NCBI RefSeq assembly: GCF_014898155.1 | Contig: NZ_CP062938.1 | Span: 1-64,000, forward strand | DNA: 64,000 bases | Direction: 5' to 3' | Origin: Bifidobacterium eulemuris | GTDB taxonomy: Bacteria; Actinomycetota; Actinomycetes; Actinomycetales; Bifidobacteriaceae | Shown: positions 33,837-63,983 of the stretch, in pieces | Position numbering within the stretch: the stretch's first letter is position 1 | How the letters are laid out: every line of letters begins with the position of its first letter | Made by a program: the position numbers and the translations under genes | Notes under the pieces: model-generated | What the model saw: only the letters and a program-made list of their open reading frames with translations | Told to the model about the DNA's origin: nothing | The model's database searches: none

Positions 33837-33904
33837 GGTTCCATCACGTCCGCGGATAAGATTCGCCGACGTCAGACGGCAATACCCCCACAAGATAGAG
33901 AGTT

Positions 33905-36184
33905 ATGGCAACTGAAGAATACGGCGCCAAAGACCTGTCCGTCCTCGAAGGTCTGGACGCGGTGCGCAAGCGCCCCGGCATGTACATCGGCACCACCGAC
34001 TCGCAGGGTCTTATGCACTGCCTGTGGGAGATCATCGATAATTCCGTGGATGAGGCGCTGGCCGGATTCTGCACCAATATCGTCGTGACCCTGCATACGG
34101 ACGGTTCTGTGGAGGTGGCCGACAACGGCCGTGGCATCCCGGTCGACAAGGAGCCGAAAACCGGCCTGTCCGGCGTGGAGGTCGTGCTCACCAAACTGCA
34201 TGCGGGCGCGAAGTTCGGCAATTCGTCGTACAACGCGGTCGGCGGTCTGCACGGCGTCGGCTCGTCGGTGGTCAACGCGCTGAGCTCCCGTCTCGAGGTC
34301 GAGGTGGACCGCGACGGCAAAACCCATCACATGTCGTTCCATCAGGGGCATCCGGGCGTGTATGAGGACGCCGATCCGGCGCATCCCTCGCCCGACTCGC
34401 CGTTCAAGCGCACCCGCAAGAACAAACCCACCGAGCTTGAGGTTATCGGCAAGGTACCGCCCAAAACCACGGGCACGCGCATCCGCTACTGGTACGACCC
34501 GGAGATTTTCAACAAAACGGCGGAATTCTCCTACGAGCAGCTGGTCGACCGCGTGCGCCAGACCAGCTTCCTCGTGCCCGGCCTGAAAATCACCGTCGTC
34601 GACGAGAACATCCCCGAGAATTCCTCCGTCATTTCGAGCGACGCTTCCCTCGTCATTCCGAGCGATACCTCTTCCGTCATTCCGAGCGAAGTCGAGGAAT
34701 CTCCCTCCCTCATTGACGACGCCCCTTCCATCAGCGAAAGCGACGCCTCCGCAACCCCCACCGTCGTCGACGGCGCCTTCGGCAAGCAGCCCGCCCATGA
34801 GCGCGTCGTGGAATTCCTCCACACCGGCGGCGTGAAGGATTTCGTCGACTTCCTCTCCAAAGGCGAGGCCATCTCCGACATCTGGCGCATCCAAGGCGAA
34901 GGCACCTACAGGGAGGAGACGCAGGCCGTGGGAGCGGGCGGCGAACTGCACGCCGAGGAGATTGAACGCACCTGCGGCGTCGACATCGCCCTGCGTTGGG
35001 TCAACGGCTACGACACCACGATCATGAGCTTCGTGAACATCGTGGAGACCCCCGGCGGCGGCATGCACGTCGACGGCTTCATGAACGCGATCACCAAGCA
35101 GATCCGCAAAACCGTCGAAGACAACGCGCGCAAGCTCAAGGTGAACCTCAAGGACTCTGCCATGAAGGTGGAGCGCGACGACATTCAGGCCGGTCTGGTG
35201 GCCGTGGTCACCGTGCGCGTGGCCGAACCGCAGTTCCAAGGCCAGACCAAGGACGTGCTTGGCACCGCGCAGGTCAAGCCGATCGTCACCCGTCTGACCG
35301 ACAAACAGTTCGGCGAGATGATCACCGGCTCCAAGCGCGGGTTCAAGGACCAGTCCGGCCGTGTGTTGGAGAAGATCGTCGGCGAGATGCACGCGCGCAT
35401 CCAGTCACGCAAGGCCAAGGAGGTCACGCGCCGCAAGAACGCGCTCGAATCCGCGTCCATGCCGGCCAAACTCTCCGACTGCCAGCCGGGCAACGACGAT
35501 GTGGCCGAACTGTTCATCGTCGAGGGCGATTCCGCGCTCGGCACCGCCAAGGCCGCGCGCAACGCCGGCTTCCAGGCGCTGCTGCCGATCCGAGGCAAGA
35601 TCCTCAACGTGCAGAAGGCCTCGATCACGCAGATGCTCGGCAACAAGGAATGCGCGGCCATCATCCAGGTGGTGGGTGCCGGCTCCGGACAGAGCTTCGA
35701 CATCACGCAGTCGCGCTACCACAAGGTCATCATGATGACCGATGCCGACGTGGACGGCGCGCATATCCGCATCCTGCTGCTCACCCTGTTCTACCGCTAT
35801 ATGCGGCCGCTGATCGAACACGGCTACGTGTACGCCGCCGTGCCGCCGTTGCACCGCATCGCGCTGACCGGCTCGCGCAAGGGCGAATACATCTACACGT
35901 ATTCCGACGACGAGCTGGCCGTCAAACTTGCGGAACTCGACGCCAAGCATATCGGCTACAACGACGACATCCAGCGGTACAAGGGTCTGGGCGAGATGGA
36001 CGCCGACCAGCTGGCCGACACCACCATGGATCCGCGCACGCGCATGCTGCGCCGCATCCGCATGGAGGACGCCGCCAACGCCTCGGCCGTGTTCGACCTG
36101 CTCATGGGCGACGACGTGCCTCCGCGCAAGCAGTTCATCGTCGACAACGCCGACGACTTCGACCGTTCCAAAATTGACACGTGA
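33905..36184 (+). CDS. parE: DNA topoisomerase IV subunit B
   Basis: ATPase subunit of topoisomerase IV, 759 residues, which works with ParC to separate daughter chromosomes. The GHKL ATPase motifs are IIDNSVDEALAG, VADNGRGIPVD and VGGLHGVGSSVVNALS. The TOPRIM motifs are LFIVEGDSALGTA and MTDADVDGAHIR. QGQTKDVLGT and YKGLGEMDADQLADTTMDP are family-like. ParE rather than GyrB is assigned because parC lies nearby. Residues ~238-300, between the transducer start and AHERVVEFLHTGGVKDFVDF, are an insertion rich in Ser, Asp and Glu. It contains three 8-residue units built on a palindromic DNA repeat (34627-34698). The insertion is in frame and everything else is conserved. Confidence 0.95.
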   Translation: MATEEYGAKDLSVLEGLDAVRKRPGMYIGTTDSQGLMHCLWEIIDNSVDEALAGFCTNIVVTLHTDGSVEVADNGRGIPVDKEPKTGLSGVEVVLTKLHAGAKFGNSSYNAVGGLHGVGSSVVNALSSRLEVEVDRDGKTHHMSFHQGHPGVYEDADPAHPSPDSPFKRTRKNKPTELEVIGKVPPKTTGTRIRYWYDPEIFNKTAEFSYEQLVDRVRQTSFLVPGLKITVVDENIPENSSVISSDASLVIPSDTSSVIPSEVEESPSLIDDAPSISESDASATPTVVDGAFGKQPAHERVVEFLHTGGVKDFVDFLSKGEAISDIWRIQGEGTYREETQAVGAGGELHAEEIERTCGVDIALRWVNGYDTTIMSFVNIVETPGGGMHVDGFMNAITKQIRKTVEDNARKLKVNLKDSAMKVERDDIQAGLVAVVTVRVAEPQFQGQTKDVLGTAQVKPIVTRLTDKQFGEMITGSKRGFKDQSGRVLEKIVGEMHARIQSRKAKEVTRRKNALESASMPAKLSDCQPGNDDVAELFIVEGDSALGTAKAARNAGFQALLPIRGKILNVQKASITQMLGNKECAAIIQVVGAGSGQSFDITQSRYHKVIMMTDADVDGAHIRILLLTLFYRYMRPLIEHGYVYAAVPPLHRIALTGSRKGEYIYTYSDDELAVKLAELDAKHIGYNDDIQRYKGLGEMDADQLADTTMDPRTRMLRRIRMEDAANASAVFDLLMGDDVPPRKQFIVDNADDFDRSKIDT
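34627..34712 (+). repeat. Interspersed-repeat copies captured inside parE (three 24-bp units)
   Basis: Three tandem units of 24 bases (34627-34650, 34651-34674, 34675-34698) begin CGTCATTTCGAGCG or CGTCATTCCGAGCG. The last continues AAGTCGAGGAATCTC, the full left arm of the interspersed repeat. They encode VISSDASL, VIPSDTSS and VIPSEVEE. The same DNA motif occurs in Lhr at 41637. Confidence 0.8.
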
Positions 36185-40399: not shown

Positions 40400-43300
40400 A
40401 TGTACGATTGCATGGATGCGTTCGCCGAGCCCACCCGGGCATGGTTCGCCCATGCGTTCGGCGAGCCCACCGAGGCGCAGCGGCGGGCATGGCCCGCGAT
40501 TCGATCCGGGCGCGACACGTTGGTGATCGCGCCCACCGGATCGGGCAAAACCCTGGCCGCGTTCCTTTCATCCATCGACCGGCTGATGTCTCACACGATA
40601 GGCGAGCCATCGGCCCGCGGCCGGCAAGAAGACGTCGAAGCCTCCCCTGTTCGGAAGCGTCGAAGCGGACGCAAGACGAACCGTGGCGTCAGCGTGCTGT
40701 ATATCTCGCCGCTGAAGGCCTTGGCGGCGGATGTGGCCAAAAACCTCATGCGCCCGCTTGACGGCATCGCCGCCGAATGCGAAGCGATGGGGCTTCCCGC
40801 GCCCGAAGTCACCGTAGCCATGCGCAGCGGCGACGCCACGCCACAGGAGCGACGCCGCATCGTCTCGCATCCGCCGGACATCCTCGTCACCACACCCGAA
40901 TCGCTGTATCTCATGCTCACGTCGAAGGCGCGTGACGTACTGGCGACGGTCGACACGGTGATCGTGGACGAAGTGCACGCCGTGGCGGGCACCAAACGCG
41001 GTGCGCATCTGGCGCTCAGCCTTGAACGTTTGGACGAGCTGGTGAGCCGGTCTCAACGCGGTTGCGGCGCGGAATCCGGTCGAAGCGATCGCGCTGATGA
41101 AACGGAGCCGCAGGGGAGTCGGCGCGTGCAGCGCATCGGCCTGTCCGCCACGGTGAAACCTCCCGAGGAAGTGGCGCGGTTCCTCGCGGGATCGCAGCCG
41201 GTTGAGATCATCGACCCCGGTAGCGCGCCCGATATGGATTTGAAGATCGTCGAGCCCCTCGCCGATATGCGCGACCTGCAATCGGCGAATGTGAAGCACC
41301 GCGCCGGCGGCGTCGATGCGCGGCCCGCTGGCGAACCGGCGATTTCAGGAGTCACACCGGCCATGCGCCGCTTGGCCAAACGCAAAGGGCTGGCCAAAGC
41401 GGACGGCGACGGCATCGGCTATCAGGCCATCGTCGGAGCGGCGGGCGACGGCATGGGCGGCATGGGCTCGCCCACGGGCGACCAGGCCGGCTCGATATGG
41501 CCCGTCATCGAGCGCAGCGTGCTCGAGGAGATCCTCGCGCACAAAACCACTCTGGTGTTCGTCAACTCGCGCGGCCTCGCCGAAAAACTCACCGCTCGCC
41601 TCAATGACCTCTACGCGGACACCATCGCCCCGTCTCGTCATTCCGAGCGGAGCGCAGCGCAGCCGAGGAATCCCGACACCGGCTCGCCGGAAGGCCGCTC
41701 GTCGTTCGCCCGACATTACGACGCCGTGGTCGGCGGCACCACGCAGCTGGTCCATTCCCATGAGACTAGTGACGTGATCGCCATGGCACACCATGGATCC
41801 GTGTCCAAAGACCGTCGCAAACGCATCGAGGACGACCTCAAAAACGGTCGTCTGCGTTGCGTGGTGGCGACCAGCAGTCTGGAACTCGGCATCGACATGG
41901 GCTCGGTTGATCTGGTCATCCAAATCGCGCCGCCGTTAAGCGTCTCCAGCGGACTGCAACGCGTCGGCCGCGCCGACCATCGCGTGGGCGGCGTCTCGCA
42001 CGCCCTGTTCTACCCGTTGACCCGCGAACAGATCATCGGCTCGGCTGCCAGCATCGAAGCCATGCGGGCCGGCGATATCGAACCGATCCACATGCCTCGC
42101 AACCCGCTTGACATTCTCGCCCAGCACACGGTGGCCGCCGCGTCGATGGACGATCTCGACGCCGACCATTGGTTCGAGATCGTCCGGCGTGCCGCACCCT
42201 TCGCCGGTCTCGAACGCGGCGTTTTCGACTCGGTGATGGGCATGATGACCGGCGCCTATAACAGCGAGGATTTCTCCGCGTTCCGTCCGCCGCTAATGTT
42301 CAACGAGGATGCCGGTCTGATCTCCGCCCGCCCCGGAGCCCAGCGGCTGGCCGTCACCTCAGGCGGCACGATTCCCGACCGAGGGTTGTACACCGTGGTG
42401 CTGCCCGAAGCCGACGCGGGCAAAGGGCCGCGCCGCGTGGGCGAACTCGATGAGGAGATGGTCTACGAATCACGCGTCGGCGATGTGATTACGTTGGGCA
42501 CCTCCACATGGCAGATTCAGGAGATCACCCGAGACCGCGTGACGGTGCTGCCCGCGCCCGGACGCACCGCGAGACTGCCGTTCTGGCATGGCGATGGCAA
42601 CGGACGTGACGCGGCCTTCGGACGAACTAAAGGCCGATTCCTTCGCGAAACCAGCGCCGCCCTCATCCCCAGCCATCCAGACCACGACCCAGCTTCTTCC
42701 CGTCCTCCTGAGGAGATGCTTCGACTCCGCTGCGCTCCGCTCAGCATGACGAATAAACATCATCAACGTCCTTCCGAACAGAGCACAACCTCTGCTTGTC
42801 CTCCTGAGTGGACCGCAGCCTCTTCTTGTCATCCTGAGCGGAGCGCAGCGGAGTCGAAGGATCCCTCCCCGCGATTCTCCGAATCCACCGAACAACGCCT
42901 TATCGCCGACGGCCTCGACCGCAACTCCATCGACAATCTCGCCGCCCTGCTCGCCGAACAGCGGGCCTGTACCGGCGTGGTGCCCAACGACCGGCATCTC
43001 GTCATCGAACGCTGCCCAAGCGAGGAAGGCGACTGGCAGGTCATCCTCCATTCGCCGTACGGTCGGCGCGTCCACGAGCCTTGGGCCATGGCCGTAAGCC
43101 ACCGCATCAAACAGCGCTACGGATTCGACGGCCAGACCTATGCCGCGGATGACGGCATCATCCTCCGATTGCCGGACGGCGTGGCGGTCGGCGAATCCCT
43201 GTCTTACGGTGAGACGTCTGCGGACACCGCAGCCGCCGACGTCTCTTATACCGGCCAAGACCGGCCGTTATCCGACGGCATGTCGTCCTCATGGCTGCGC

Positions 43301-45808
43301 GACATGTTCCTGTTCGACACGGACGAACTGACGCGCGATGTGGAGACGCAGGTTGGGGAGTCGGTGCTGTTCGCCGCGCGGTTCCGCGAATGCGCGGCGC
43401 GTTCGCTGTTCCTGCCGCGTACCGACCCCGGCAAACGCGTACCGCTGTGGCAGCAGCGGCTGCGGGCCGCGCAGCTGCTCAACGCCGCGCGCACCAGACG
43501 CAACTTCCCATTGCTGCTGGAAACCGCGCGCGAATGCCTGCAGGATGTCTACGATATGGCCGCCCTGCGCGAACTCATGACCGGGCTCAACGCCGGAACC
43601 ATCGCGCTGGGAGAGGCGGAAACGCAGCGTCCCTCTCCGTTCGCGGAAAACCTGCTGTTCGGATACGTCGGCCAAGTGATGTACCAGTATGACGTGCCGC
43701 AGGCCGAACGCAGCGCGCAGTTGCTGTCGATCGACCCCGAAGTACTGGAACGCCTACTGGGAAGCTCCGATATGACCAGCGTGCTCGACGAGCAGGTCAT
43801 CACGCAAGTCGAAGCGGAACTCGCCGCACGCACCTTCTGGAACGATCTCGACCTCTCCGACGTGGTCGGCCGCGTCACACGATTCGCCAAAACCCATGGG
43901 CCCTTCACCTCCGACGAAGTGATGCGCGAGCTGGCATTGGACGCCTCGACCGTCGTCCGCACGCTCGACGAGCTCACCCTACGTGGCGAATTGCTGCATG
44001 GTCGGTTCACGGCCCAACCCGTGTCGGGGGAGTCGAGGAAGGCCCACGCGGACGCCGGAGGAACAGGCGGTCTGGAATCGCAATTCACAGAATCACACGC
44101 CTCGGAACCGGAACCGCGTGTTGTGGAGCCGCATACTTCGGCATCACATGCAGCGGATTCGCACCCCGACCAGTGGTTGCACAGGGATGTGTTCCGGCGG
44201 ATTCGTTCGCGCTCGCTCAAGAAGGCGCGCGAATCCGTCAAACCAGTGGACGTCTCGACCTTCCAAACCTTCCTGCTTGACCGGCAGGGCGTCGGTCCGG
44301 TCGGCGGTGAACGATACGAGGGCGTCGACGGATTGATGCGCGTCATCGAACAGTTGGAAGGCGTGGCACTACCGGCGTCCGTATGGGAACGCAGCGTGTT
44401 TCCGGCCCGCGTGCGCGATTATCAGCCCGCGCTGCTCGACGAGCTCATCACCTCCGGCGATGTGGTCTGGATCGGATCCCAATCCGGCGCCAAGCCCAAG
44501 GAACGAGTCAAAGAACCCGGGCTGGTGTCGTTCCATCCCGCGAATTCGCCATTACCGGAACGGTTCGGCCATCGCGACAGGCGCGCCGCCGCCGGCGTGG
44601 GGACCCTGCCCGACGCGATCGCCGACGTGCTGTCGTCGTCGGGCGCGTATCGCGCCGACCAACTGGCGGCCTTGTCGCGCGGACGTTGGGAGGAAATAGC
44701 TCCCGAAGTGGATTCCGACACCGGCGAGATCGTCGGCAAGGCATGGTCGGACAGTCAATTCGAAGAGGCGCTCTGGTCGCTGGTCTGGCAGGGAAGGGTG
44801 ACCAACAGCTCATTCTCGCCGGTGCGGGCGTTGGATGCCGGCACGCGAGCTGCACGAGCCCCGTCAAGGGCCTCCCGCAGACATATGCGCATGGCACCGG
44901 CCATTCCCCTCAACATGACGGGCCTATGGATGGCCGTGGACGGCGCGGATGGTTCCGAGGCGGATGATCGGTCGGACGGGGCGGTGATCCGCGCCACCGG
45001 CATGTCGCCTGAGGCGGTGCGGAGCTTCGCCGCAAGCGGGAATCCCAACACCGGCGGTTCCGATGCCAGCGAGGTTGGGCCGTCGGTGGGACGTTCCGAT
45101 GGGAGACGGCTCTCGTCGCGGCCTGAACAGGTGGCGATCGCACGTGTCGAGGCCCTGCTGGACCGCTACGGGGTGGTCGCTCAGCCGCTTGTGGACAAGG
45201 AGAACCTGCCGGGAGGCTTCTCCGCGCTCTACCCGGTGCTGAGGCGTATGGAGGAGCACGGCACGCTGGTGCGCGGCATGTTCGTCAAAGGGTTCGGCGC
45301 GGCTCAATTCGCCTCCAAAGAGGTGGTCGACGTGCTGCGCCAATCGACGGAAGGACACGTCGAATCGGCGGTGGCGTTGAGCGTGCTCGACCCCGCGAAT
45401 CTCGCTGGATCCGCAGTGGCCTGGCCTGATGTGTCAGCGGGCGCGACCAAACCAATCCGTCGCGCCGGCGGCGTGGTCGTCATCGCCGCCGGTCGACCGG
45501 TCGCCTATGCTGCGGTCAAATCCAAACACCTCACCATATTCGACGGGGCGGCCGGGCGTGGTGGCGAGAACCGTGATGGCAGCGAGAACAACGAGGACGG
45601 CGAGAAGAGCGAGAGCTACGAGAACAACGAGCTGTTGCGGCGCGCCTTAAGCGAACTCACGTACGCCTTGCGGCGCGACAGTCCCACCGGCAGCATCACC
45701 TTCGCCGATGCGAACGGCGAATCGTTCGCCGGAGGCAACCCTTATACGCGGGTGCTCCGACTGGTGGGGTTCACGCTCACGCCGCAAGGCATGAAGCTGT
45801 ACCGCTGA
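40400..45808 (+). CDS. lhr: Lhr-like ATP-dependent helicase with in-frame repeat insertions
   Basis: Very large superfamily 2 helicase of 1802 residues; most Lhr proteins have about 1500-1600. Lhr enzymes unwind DNA or DNA:RNA and are linked to repair. Motifs: Q-like FGEPTEAQRRAWPAI, Walker A APTGSGKTLAAF (residues ~35-46), VDEVHAVAG (~190), LSATVKPPEEVARFL (~250), helicase C with TSSLELGIDMGSVDLVIQI and QRVGRADHRVGG (~510). The Lhr core and winged-helix region follow to the C-terminus (EAQRRAW and FTLTPQGMKLYR at the ends). Two stretches do not belong to the family: residues ~412-425 (SERSAAQPRNPD) and ~755-825 (PPEEMLRLRCAPLS, CPPEWTAASSCHPERSAAES). These are translations of a palindromic interspersed repeat. 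An Asn/Glu/Ser-rich run lies near residue 1725. The message is probably leaderless. Confidence 0.93.
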   Translation: MYDCMDAFAEPTRAWFAHAFGEPTEAQRRAWPAIRSGRDTLVIAPTGSGKTLAAFLSSIDRLMSHTIGEPSARGRQEDVEASPVRKRRSGRKTNRGVSVLYISPLKALAADVAKNLMRPLDGIAAECEAMGLPAPEVTVAMRSGDATPQERRRIVSHPPDILVTTPESLYLMLTSKARDVLATVDTVIVDEVHAVAGTKRGAHLALSLERLDELVSRSQRGCGAESGRSDRADETEPQGSRRVQRIGLSATVKPPEEVARFLAGSQPVEIIDPGSAPDMDLKIVEPLADMRDLQSANVKHRAGGVDARPAGEPAISGVTPAMRRLAKRKGLAKADGDGIGYQAIVGAAGDGMGGMGSPTGDQAGSIWPVIERSVLEEILAHKTTLVFVNSRGLAEKLTARLNDLYADTIAPSRHSERSAAQPRNPDTGSPEGRSSFARHYDAVVGGTTQLVHSHETSDVIAMAHHGSVSKDRRKRIEDDLKNGRLRCVVATSSLELGIDMGSVDLVIQIAPPLSVSSGLQRVGRADHRVGGVSHALFYPLTREQIIGSAASIEAMRAGDIEPIHMPRNPLDILAQHTVAAASMDDLDADHWFEIVRRAAPFAGLERGVFDSVMGMMTGAYNSEDFSAFRPPLMFNEDAGLISARPGAQRLAVTSGGTIPDRGLYTVVLPEADAGKGPRRVGELDEEMVYESRVGDVITLGTSTWQIQEITRDRVTVLPAPGRTARLPFWHGDGNGRDAAFGRTKGRFLRETSAALIPSHPDHDPASSRPPEEMLRLRCAPLSMTNKHHQRPSEQSTTSACPPEWTAASSCHPERSAAESKDPSPRFSESTEQRLIADGLDRNSIDNLAALLAEQRACTGVVPNDRHLVIERCPSEEGDWQVILHSPYGRRVHEPWAMAVSHRIKQRYGFDGQTYAADDGIILRLPDGVAVGESLSYGETSADTAAADVSYTGQDRPLSDGMSSSWLRDMFLFDTDELTRDVETQVGESVLFAARFRECAARSLFLPRTDPGKRVPLWQQRLRAAQLLNAARTRRNFPLLLETARECLQDVYDMAALRELMTGLNAGTIALGEAETQRPSPFAENLLFGYVGQVMYQYDVPQAERSAQLLSIDPEVLERLLGSSDMTSVLDEQVITQVEAELAARTFWNDLDLSDVVGRVTRFAKTHGPFTSDEVMRELALDASTVVRTLDELTLRGELLHGRFTAQPVSGESRKAHADAGGTGGLESQFTESHASEPEPRVVEPHTSASHAADSHPDQWLHRDVFRRIRSRSLKKARESVKPVDVSTFQTFLLDRQGVGPVGGERYEGVDGLMRVIEQLEGVALPASVWERSVFPARVRDYQPALLDELITSGDVVWIGSQSGAKPKERVKEPGLVSFHPANSPLPERFGHRDRRAAAGVGTLPDAIADVLSSSGAYRADQLAALSRGRWEEIAPEVDSDTGEIVGKAWSDSQFEEALWSLVWQGRVTNSSFSPVRALDAGTRAARAPSRASRRHMRMAPAIPLNMTGLWMAVDGADGSEADDRSDGAVIRATGMSPEAVRSFAASGNPNTGGSDASEVGPSVGRSDGRRLSSRPEQVAIARVEALLDRYGVVAQPLVDKENLPGGFSALYPVLRRMEEHGTLVRGMFVKGFGAAQFASKEVVDVLRQSTEGHVESAVALSVLDPANLAGSAVAWPDVSAGATKPIRRAGGVVVIAAGRPVAYAAVKSKHLTIFDGAAGRGGENRDGSENNEDGEKSESYENNELLRRALSELTYALRRDSPTGSITFADANGESFAGGNPYTRVLRLVGFTLTPQGMKLYR
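41637..41674 (+). repeat. Interspersed-repeat copy inside lhr (left)
   Basis: GTCATTCCGAGCGGAGCGCA and the following 18 bases (ending GAGGAATCCC) match the arm of the repeat found at 63884-63921, in the CATTCC/GGAATC variant also present in parE. The frame stays open and adds about 13 residues. Confidence 0.8.
42701..42867. repeat. Cluster of interspersed-repeat copies inside lhr (right)
   Basis: Three pieces of the repeat follow one another. Bases 42702-42750 start GTCCTCCTGAGGAG and end CGCTCAGCATGAC (a shrunken hairpin with both arms). Bases 42798-42819 read GTCCTCCTGAGTGGACCGCA. Bases 42828-42867 start GTCATCCTGAGCGGAGCGCA and end GTCGAAGGATCCC. The frame is kept through all, adding about 70 residues of low-complexity, repeat-derived sequence between two conserved parts of the helicase. 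Confidence 0.8.
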
Positions 45809-63864: not shown

Positions 63865-63883
63865 TCCGGTAGCTTCCTCTCGT

Positions 63884-63983
63884 GTCATCCTGAGCGGAGC
63901 GCAGCGAAGTCGAAGGATCTCTTACCTAACAACGGTGGAGATCCTTCGACTTCGTTCGTTTCACTCACTCCACTCAGGATGAC
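63884..63983. repeat. 100-bp palindromic interspersed repeat
   Basis: The left half is GTCATCCTGAG (63884-63894), a short GC-rich piece and GAAGTCGAAGGATCTC (63906-63921). The right half is GAGATCCTTCGACTTC (63938-63953), an imperfect piece and CTCAGGATGAC (63973-63983). Outer and inner arms are perfect complements, so the whole folds into one long hairpin. The same arms occur inside lhr and, as a variant, inside parE. It may also act as terminator of the GH3 gene. Confidence 0.85.

Follow-up and report, generated by a model that had tools for sequence, protein, structure and literature searches.

The closest described systems are the CGTC-tagged REPs, defined in 2013 by Di Nocera, De Gregorio and Rocco (PMC3733652), and according to the part of that paper used here, RPE-4 and RPE-6 of Rickettsia conorii as well as dRS3 of Neisseria belong to them. 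By the same part of the text, these REPs were reported from five phyla, Actinobacteria not being among these; they come without a dedicated transposase, and the question of what moves them was left open in 2013. Some copies lie within genes, many of these being DNA replication and repair genes (PMC3733652, same part). In-frame Rickettsia palindromic elements (RPEs) are described in the portion used of a 2024 review, where comparable events elsewhere are called conceivable (PMC10969869), and enterobacterial repeat units have also been found in frame in genes (PMC2759123, in the part used). In-frame capture is a known kind of event, and what the present case adds is a sister species for comparison and two palindrome families in one linker.

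We analysed a stretch of 64,000 nucleotides of Bifidobacterium eulemuris DNA (the window), which includes the gene for the helicase Lhr. The domains DEAD, Helicase_C, WH_Lhr, DEAD_assoc, WH3_Lhr and WH4_Lhr are all six found above cut-offs in the product, its top match among solved structures is the Lhr of M. smegmatis, and it scores 1440.7 bits against NCBIfam PRK09751, slightly below the cut-off of 1496. Three full copies of a palindromic repeat and two half units lie in this gene, all of them in frame, with ends that were taken by eye, so that the coordinates of the repeat pieces are approximate:

40400..45808, plus strand: Lhr helicase gene, 1802 codons, single uninterrupted frame
41636..41674, plus strand: REP copy at site 1 (RHSERSAAQPRNP), in a loop within the second RecA domain, differing from the 25-mer at 4 positions, placed by alignment
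42713..42751, minus strand: inverted REP copy at site 2, translated EEMLRLRCAPLSMT, strict copy at 42716-42750
42767..42789, plus strand: degenerate 5' half unit at site 2 (PSEQSTT), placed by eye, beginning 30 nt ahead of the next half unit
42797..42819, plus strand: degenerate 5' half unit at site 2 (CPPEWTAAS), family D7, beginning 30 nt ahead of the full copy
42827..42865, plus strand: REP copy at site 2 (CHPERSAAESKDP), 0 mismatches to the 25-mer, strict copy at 42828-42862

The original prediction held that pieces of an interspersed repeat are translated in frame in Lhr without ever breaking it, and both statements were borne out: all four peptides that it quoted were located, along with one further half unit, and the 1802 codons of Lhr run on without interruption. 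It went too far in making the protein about 200 residues longer than usual through the repeats. The open frame of 1813 codons compares with a median of 1665 and a range of 1549-2106 at 29 other bifidobacterial loci (complete genes only, duplicates removed, median computed by hand), and the repeat-bearing linkers account for about 57 of the approximately 148 surplus codons, so that most of the surplus is not repeat. The proposed position of the inserts between conserved domains is correct for site 2, which lies between WH_Lhr and DEAD_assoc where the M. smegmatis protein has a stretch of about 14 residues flanked by residues 641 and 656, but not for site 1, which is a loop within the second RecA (Helicase_C) domain. 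An AlphaFold model of Lhr residues 352-926, built with 25 sequences, is weak (mean pLDDT 56.8, pTM 0.39), and the inserts fall in its segments 60-103 and 410-469, which are coil of low confidence flanked by better-modelled helices. That the inserts form loops is plausible, since it fits both the variable length of these linkers and the low-confidence coil of this weak model.

The repeat belongs to a family that is abundant in the genome. A 25-mer of it, allowing up to 3 mismatches, occurs 82 times in the 2.92-Mb genome and the reversed pattern 0 times, and a wider exact pattern finds 247 strict copies, again with 0 for the reversed pattern. Across 112 Bifidobacterium genomes the wider pattern is present in 11, with reversed controls all 0: G111 has 305 copies, the B. 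eulemuris genome (G000) 247, its sister species G041 239, G050 155, G075 56, B. oedipodis (G053) 48, G055 26, G010 20, G005 3, and G003 and G066 1 each. One further copy in the window lies away from Lhr:

63883..63921, plus strand: REP copy outside any open frame of at least 80 codons

The anatomy of the family was read from 157 strict copies taken from 459 kb of the genome, namely the window plus 57 stretches that surround the 82 copies. The search pattern fixes GTC and the complementary AT at the first two stem positions; the base preceding GTC is C in 134 of 157 copies and T in 20, giving a CGTC or TGTC tag at one end, and the three bases 3' of the stem are CTC in 124 and CCC in 20 rather than CCA, the usual tail of CGTC REPs. 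The variable bases of the outer stem are paired in 106 of 108 distinct copies, compared with a mean of 38.7 and a maximum of 53 after shuffling. The inner 4-bp arm is paired in 19 of 20 copies of the 39-nt class (0.988 versus a shuffled maximum of 0.863), and in the 37-nt class its pairing only equals the shuffled maximum. Because changes in the stem are compensatory, the hairpin, as single-stranded DNA or RNA, is what is conserved. Its core is mostly 25-39 nt long, typically 25, 35, 37 or 39 nt, and it is built of a 5-bp outer stem and an internal core in place of a stem of 8-9 bp that closes a loop of 4-5 nt. Among neighbours within 150 nt of each other, 36 pairs are tail-to-tail, 24 head-to-head and 10 head-to-tail, so head-to-head pairs do not predominate. 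Tandem half units are spaced 20-44 nt apart, and 11 of 36 spacings are multiples of three, 3 of the 36 being in genes. REP dimers at 153018 and 832591 are absent at the syntenic places of G041, reflecting gain or loss. A known RNA family was considered and set aside, as Rfam at gathering thresholds gave no match in the window or in three further loci (L051, L059 and L017). Among the literature matches listed, none dealt with Bifidobacterium REPs.

With the CGTC-tagged REPs, as characterised in the part used of PMC3733652, this family shares the CGTC/TGTC tag, a compensatory palindrome and dimers, as well as a mostly extragenic location, the lack of a Y1 transposase and occasional copies within genes; the AT with which their stem starts is in this family set by the search pattern. 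It departs from them in its composite hairpin, in which a 5-bp outer stem encloses a conserved purine-rich core and an inner hairpin whereas theirs has an 8-9 bp stem and a 4-5 nt loop, and in having a CTC rather than a CCA tail, with tail-to-tail neighbours commonest (PMC3733652, same part). Since stem, tail and dimer features differ in this way, we regard the repeat as a related new family outside the four described CGTC REP families. The resemblance to RPEs that had been proposed from the sequence holds, in that a genome-wide palindrome family lies in frame in Lhr and carries the kind of tag seen in RPE-4 and RPE-6 (PMC3733652, in the part used). The portion used of PMC10969869 describes RPEs likewise as palindromes translated in frame in unrelated genes; they are about 150 bp long and frequent in genes, whereas the Lhr repeat is shorter and strongly depleted from genes. 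The Lhr repeat works like an RPE without being classed as one. The enterobacterial units RU-1 to RU-3 are also small mobile repeats found in frame in genes, but they are MITE-like units of 103-168 bp (PMC2759123, in the part used).

Alignment of Lhr across the genus shows how restricted the inserts are. The repeat is present at site 1 in 2 of 50 Lhr genes (B. eulemuris and G041) and at site 2 in 3 of 43 scored genes (the same two and B. oedipodis, which has one eroded copy), the other 7 of the 50 being not scorable at site 2 by the expression used. The B. eulemuris gene is counted in both figures, and with the repeat in so few homologues, the outcome named in advance as refuting the idea, the same segments in all of them, is absent. 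The linker at site 1 ranges from 40 to 91 residues (median 45, B. eulemuris 56) and that at site 2 from 40 to 140 (median 59, B. eulemuris 105). G041 is 95% identical across the part of Lhr searched with a 627-residue query, its Lhr half units have the same 30-nt spacing as those of B. eulemuris (by eye), and the frame is uninterrupted in the portion of its gene that was seen. The segments in Lhr are almost certainly in-frame captures of an interspersed palindrome, and the element captured is a REP of the CGTC type.

The same linker has also received a second palindrome. In four of the 43 scored genes (L017, L021, L051 and L059), linker 2 contains an unrelated palindrome, GGCTCCCCTCTCCGAGGGGAGCTGTC...GACTGAGGGGAG, which is also in frame and is translated as SPLRGELSAQQTEG and similar. 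A 24-mer of it (up to 3 mismatches) occurs in 26 of 112 genomes, in up to 176 copies (G047), and in 0 copies in B. eulemuris and G041, which rules out that the two palindromes are one family. The genomes of L021, L051 and L059 have 13 (G067), 54 (G052) and 40 (G015) copies; that of L017 (G097) scores 0 since it carries a variant in which the runs of C and G are longer. We found no mobility gene for this second family. Judging from these alignments, two unrelated palindrome families were independently captured at one linker position of Lhr, which marks such linkers as safe landing sites.

Other genes of B. eulemuris have taken up the repeat as well. One of them lies in the window:

33899..36181, plus strand: open frame of a GyrB/ParE-like topoisomerase subunit (identified by Pfam; the extent is that of the open frame)
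34628..34675, plus strand: two 24-nt 5' half units, in frame in this gene
34675..34703, plus strand: short REP copy in this gene (VIPSEVEES), common to B. eulemuris, G041 and B. oedipodis

The segment VIPSEVEES is absent from 14 other aligned genomes (by eye), and the B. eulemuris genome has the two 24-nt half units in addition. In an ABC-F ATPase, the region between the second ATPase domain and the C-terminal domain contains half units as well as strict copies of either orientation; this region is shorter in G041, and 10 further aligned species have different linkers there. The 5' half of the B. eulemuris ABC-F gene (L124 / L154, near 2211390-2212964) is in a different frame, owing to a frameshift or a sequencing error, and the G041 orthologue is open across 811 codons. 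A GT4 glycosyltransferase has a repeat-like loop in B. eulemuris, B. oedipodis and G111, and none in one more distant relative. In-frame REPs were also seen in a heavy-metal P-type ATPase and an ABC exporter (L102 near 1393436 and L105 near 1546574). Copies near the predicted N-termini of a RadA-like protein (L099) and a NUDIX protein (L133) were excluded as likely miscalled starts. Six proteins of one genome thus carry in-frame REPs, and the sister genomes permit a comparison with and without them.

These copies are exceptions. A codon-usage rule places 7 of 157 strict copies in a frame with coding signal on both sides; applied to random positions of these stretches, it does so for 759 of 1160. 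The rule overlooks the Lhr copy at 42828, which is flanked by further repeat, and counts a doubtful copy at 158401. The latter was discarded as a capture, as it lies in a frame that runs from the end of one kinase into the beginning of another, and it is probably intergenic. Because REPs avoid genes, the in-frame copies look like survivors. Moreover, neither core lengths nor half-unit spacings are inherently multiples of three, which indicates that the frame is kept by selection on the gene and not by the element. Genes are purged of copies, and the remaining ones drift in tolerant linkers.

A candidate for what moves the family was an unexpected outcome of this analysis:

155783-156266 of the B. 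eulemuris genome: gene for a 92-residue GIY-YIG protein (PF01541, E 4e-18), lying between REPs

The gene is missing at the corresponding place of G041, and in B. oedipodis it occupies apparently the same place, flanks being compared by eye. It occurs in 5 of 112 genomes, in a single copy each (G000, G053, G050, G075 and G111), and all five are among the 8 genomes with at least 20 REPs. None was found in the other 104 genomes, nor in the REP-bearing G041 (239 copies), G055 (26 copies, assembly 74% complete) and G010 (20 copies). The hypergeometric probability of this co-occurrence, computed by hand, is about 4e-7, a figure that ignores shared descent, and the REP-rich genomes are related by descent and not independent. 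All five genes are flanked on both sides by repeats, four of them strict and that of G075 a variant recognised by eye (GTCATTTCGACCGAGCGAAGCGAG...), and in B. eulemuris and B. oedipodis a repeat adjoins the stop codon. Values of dN/dS of 0.07 (G000-G053) and 0.11 (G050-G111) point to purifying selection, and 44 columns are invariant in the five proteins. Like the UPF0213 proteins (PDB 1zg2 and 1ywl), this is a small stand-alone GIY-YIG domain, but those two, deposited as hypothetical proteins, are distant in sequence (E 7e-7 and 2e-4). A Y1 transposase (RAYT) was rejected as the mobiliser, since PF01797 is found in 7 of 112 genomes and in 0 of the REP-rich ones; the flanks of the 12 loci that were fetched have no common word longer than 10 nt.

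Relatives of the gene were then compared more widely. A tblastn search of 72,556 plasmid records gave 35 records, of which 17, about one per species, were used, and in an initial scan 9 of the 17 proved to have tagged palindromes on either side of the gene. These palindromes vary by taxon, with CGTCATCCCCGCGAAGGCGGGGATCCA in Azospirillum, CGTCATTCCCGCGCAGGCGGGAATCCA in Aeromonas and a similar one in Neisseria, and CGTCATCCTCGGGCTTGACCCGAGGATCCA in Shinella and Neorhizobium. A profile built from the five proteins was run against 396 Actinomycetota genomes and detected relatives in 42; of 17 matches above 100 bits outside the B. eulemuris genome, 16 were taken as loci (L198-L213), and 13 loci of weaker relatives (L214-L226) served as a comparison set. 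For the 38 loci together (5 Bifidobacterium, 17 plasmid and 16 Actinomycetota), hairpins tagged CGTC, TGTC or CCTC were sought within 400 nt, the tag list having been chosen after the flanks were read. Tagged hairpins lie on both sides of 24 of the 38 genes, on one side of 10 and on neither side of 4, compared with both sides of 7 of 1744 random windows (3 of 784 from 8 plasmids, 4 of 960 from G041), windows that are unmatched for intergenic position and represent 8 of the 17 plasmid records and G041, the other 9 (including Neisseria) and the Actinomycetota genomes lying outside this background. The 8 control stretches contain 46 tagged hairpins in 320 kb. None of the 13 weak relatives has tags on both sides. 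Some accepted hairpins look like chance, for example those upstream of L198 and downstream of L211; of the four loci without any, L178 has GGTC-tagged arrays outside the scan and L197 is a broken gene.

A test that takes no account of tags, and asks for a word common to both flanks, gave a similar separation for the 38 loci. Words of at least 14 nt were found at 23 of them and in 44 of 1744 random windows (25 of 784 and 19 of 960), and words of at least 18 nt at 18 loci and in 11 of 784 and 2 of 960 windows; 19 of the 25 plasmid controls at the shorter length and all 11 at the longer come from one 40-kb stretch of Azospirillum, which contains a 15.6-kb gene for an Ig-like protein. The weak relatives reach 14 nt in 5 of 13 cases, some of them with GGTCTCGATACG-like repeats. 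At L214, L216, L219 and L222, the flank words common to both sides belong to GGTCTCGATACG- or GGTCGTTGAGCG-like repeats, and the link to GIY-YIG proteins may extend to other repeat classes. The comparison of flanking sequences suggests that a GIY-YIG gene family is tied to tagged REPs across phyla, which is an association and not proof. No report of a link between GIY-YIG proteins and REPs was apparent from titles or the beginnings of abstracts among the literature matches listed, a search with subscription journals and preprints outside its scope, and the term GIY-YIG is absent from the text of PMC3733652.

The explanation that we favour, with a probability of roughly 0.75 for the whole of it, is capture of REPs in Lhr by insertion filtered through selection, combined with propagation in trans by the GIY-YIG nuclease. 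A mobile hairpin family of the CGTC type, its elements consisting of an unpaired CGTC/TGTC tag, an outer stem ATnnY/RnnAT, a GAGCG...GTCGA core, an optional inner hairpin and a CTC tail, would have inserted at two places in Lhr. The presence of the family differs between sister species, and the linkers at both Lhr sites vary in length across the genus. Insertion would be blind to frame, copies that break genes would be eliminated by selection, and in tolerant linkers in-frame copies would persist as nearly neutral passengers, growing through the addition of half units in tandem. The small GIY-YIG nuclease, encoded by a single-copy gene between REPs, would propagate the family in trans, and by analogy to RAYT/REPtron it would cut the tagged hairpin and thereby help to copy REPs and dimers to new sites. 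As described in the part used of PMC3733652, RAYT/REPtron with its REPINs is likewise a single-copy nuclease gene between REPs that it may move; the RAYT system has a GTAG tag and a Y1/HUH transposase where the present one has another tag, a GIY-YIG domain and no PF01797.

For the segments in Lhr themselves, other origins can be imagined. Local slippage in low-complexity linkers might have produced stretches that merely resemble the repeat, as the 30-nt tandem units and the simple repeats in the linker of another species (L005) would allow, but the copies at 42835 and 42719 match the genome-wide 25-mer without a mismatch and the outer stems of the Lhr copies are complete; this reading is disfavoured, and we give it the least credence of all. 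It is nearly as improbable that Lhr is decaying in this lineage and that repeats pile up unopposed. The REP-bearing ABC-F gene of the same genome, with its 5' half in a different frame, could be taken to hint at such decay, whereas the frame of Lhr is uninterrupted in B. eulemuris and in the seen part of G041, and between the two dN/dS is 0.16 over 936 codons outside the inserts, on which account a decaying Lhr was rejected. More worth considering, yet still unlikely, is the idea that the inserts are useful new segments retained for Lhr function, a role of the kind proposed for REPs that lie in DNA repair genes. Both Lhr and the GyrB/ParE-like protein act on DNA, one gene holds three full REPs, and elsewhere the genes that contain REPs often serve DNA replication and repair (PMC3733652, in the part used). 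However, insert 2 (77 codons) has a dN/dS of 0.88 between B. eulemuris and G041, from small counts of 5.5 synonymous and 15.5 non-synonymous differences, and because it evolves almost neutrally, a selected protein segment is disfavoured and the suggestion that the repeats form useful new segments loses its footing. Insert 1 (18 codons) has one non-synonymous and zero synonymous differences. Other species, furthermore, have unrelated palindromes or none in that linker, and captures occur in an ABC exporter, a P-type ATPase and a glycosyltransferase as well.

The most serious competitor accepts that the capture is genuine and differs on the nuclease, which would be a hitchhiking enzyme of the homing type that lands in abundant REPs, while the REPs spread by another route, be it the repair or replication enzymes of the host or a transposase yet to be found. 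GIY-YIG domains occur in homing nucleases, and the Pfam and NCBIfam matches of the protein include T5orf172 and, below threshold, an intron endonuclease model; G041, moreover, retains 239 REPs without the gene. The one copy of the gene in each of the five Bifidobacterium carriers, its purifying selection and flanks that carry each taxon's own palindromes speak against hitchhiking, yet each of the three is compatible with homing. We consider this alternative possible but doubtful. Our preferred reading has to accommodate the 14 of 38 GIY-YIG loci at which at least one side is without a tagged hairpin, and by analogy with RAYT the small nuclease is probably, by a modest preponderance, the mobiliser of the family.

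In-frame REPs are a known yet little studied source of protein change. It is somewhat probable that CGTC-tagged REPs in general are non-autonomous elements spread by a dedicated GIY-YIG nuclease, in which case they would form a second REPtron unrelated to RAYT/REPIN, with the inserts in Lhr as by-products. The tie between this gene family and tagged REPs provides a candidate answer to what mobilises CGTC REPs, and with tagged palindromes on either side of its members in Actinomycetota, Pseudomonadota, Cyanobacteriota and Bacteroidota, the question of the mover becomes directly testable. If the proposal is true, CGTC REPs, including the elements of Rickettsia and Neisseria, would gain a mobility gene that was thought to be missing.
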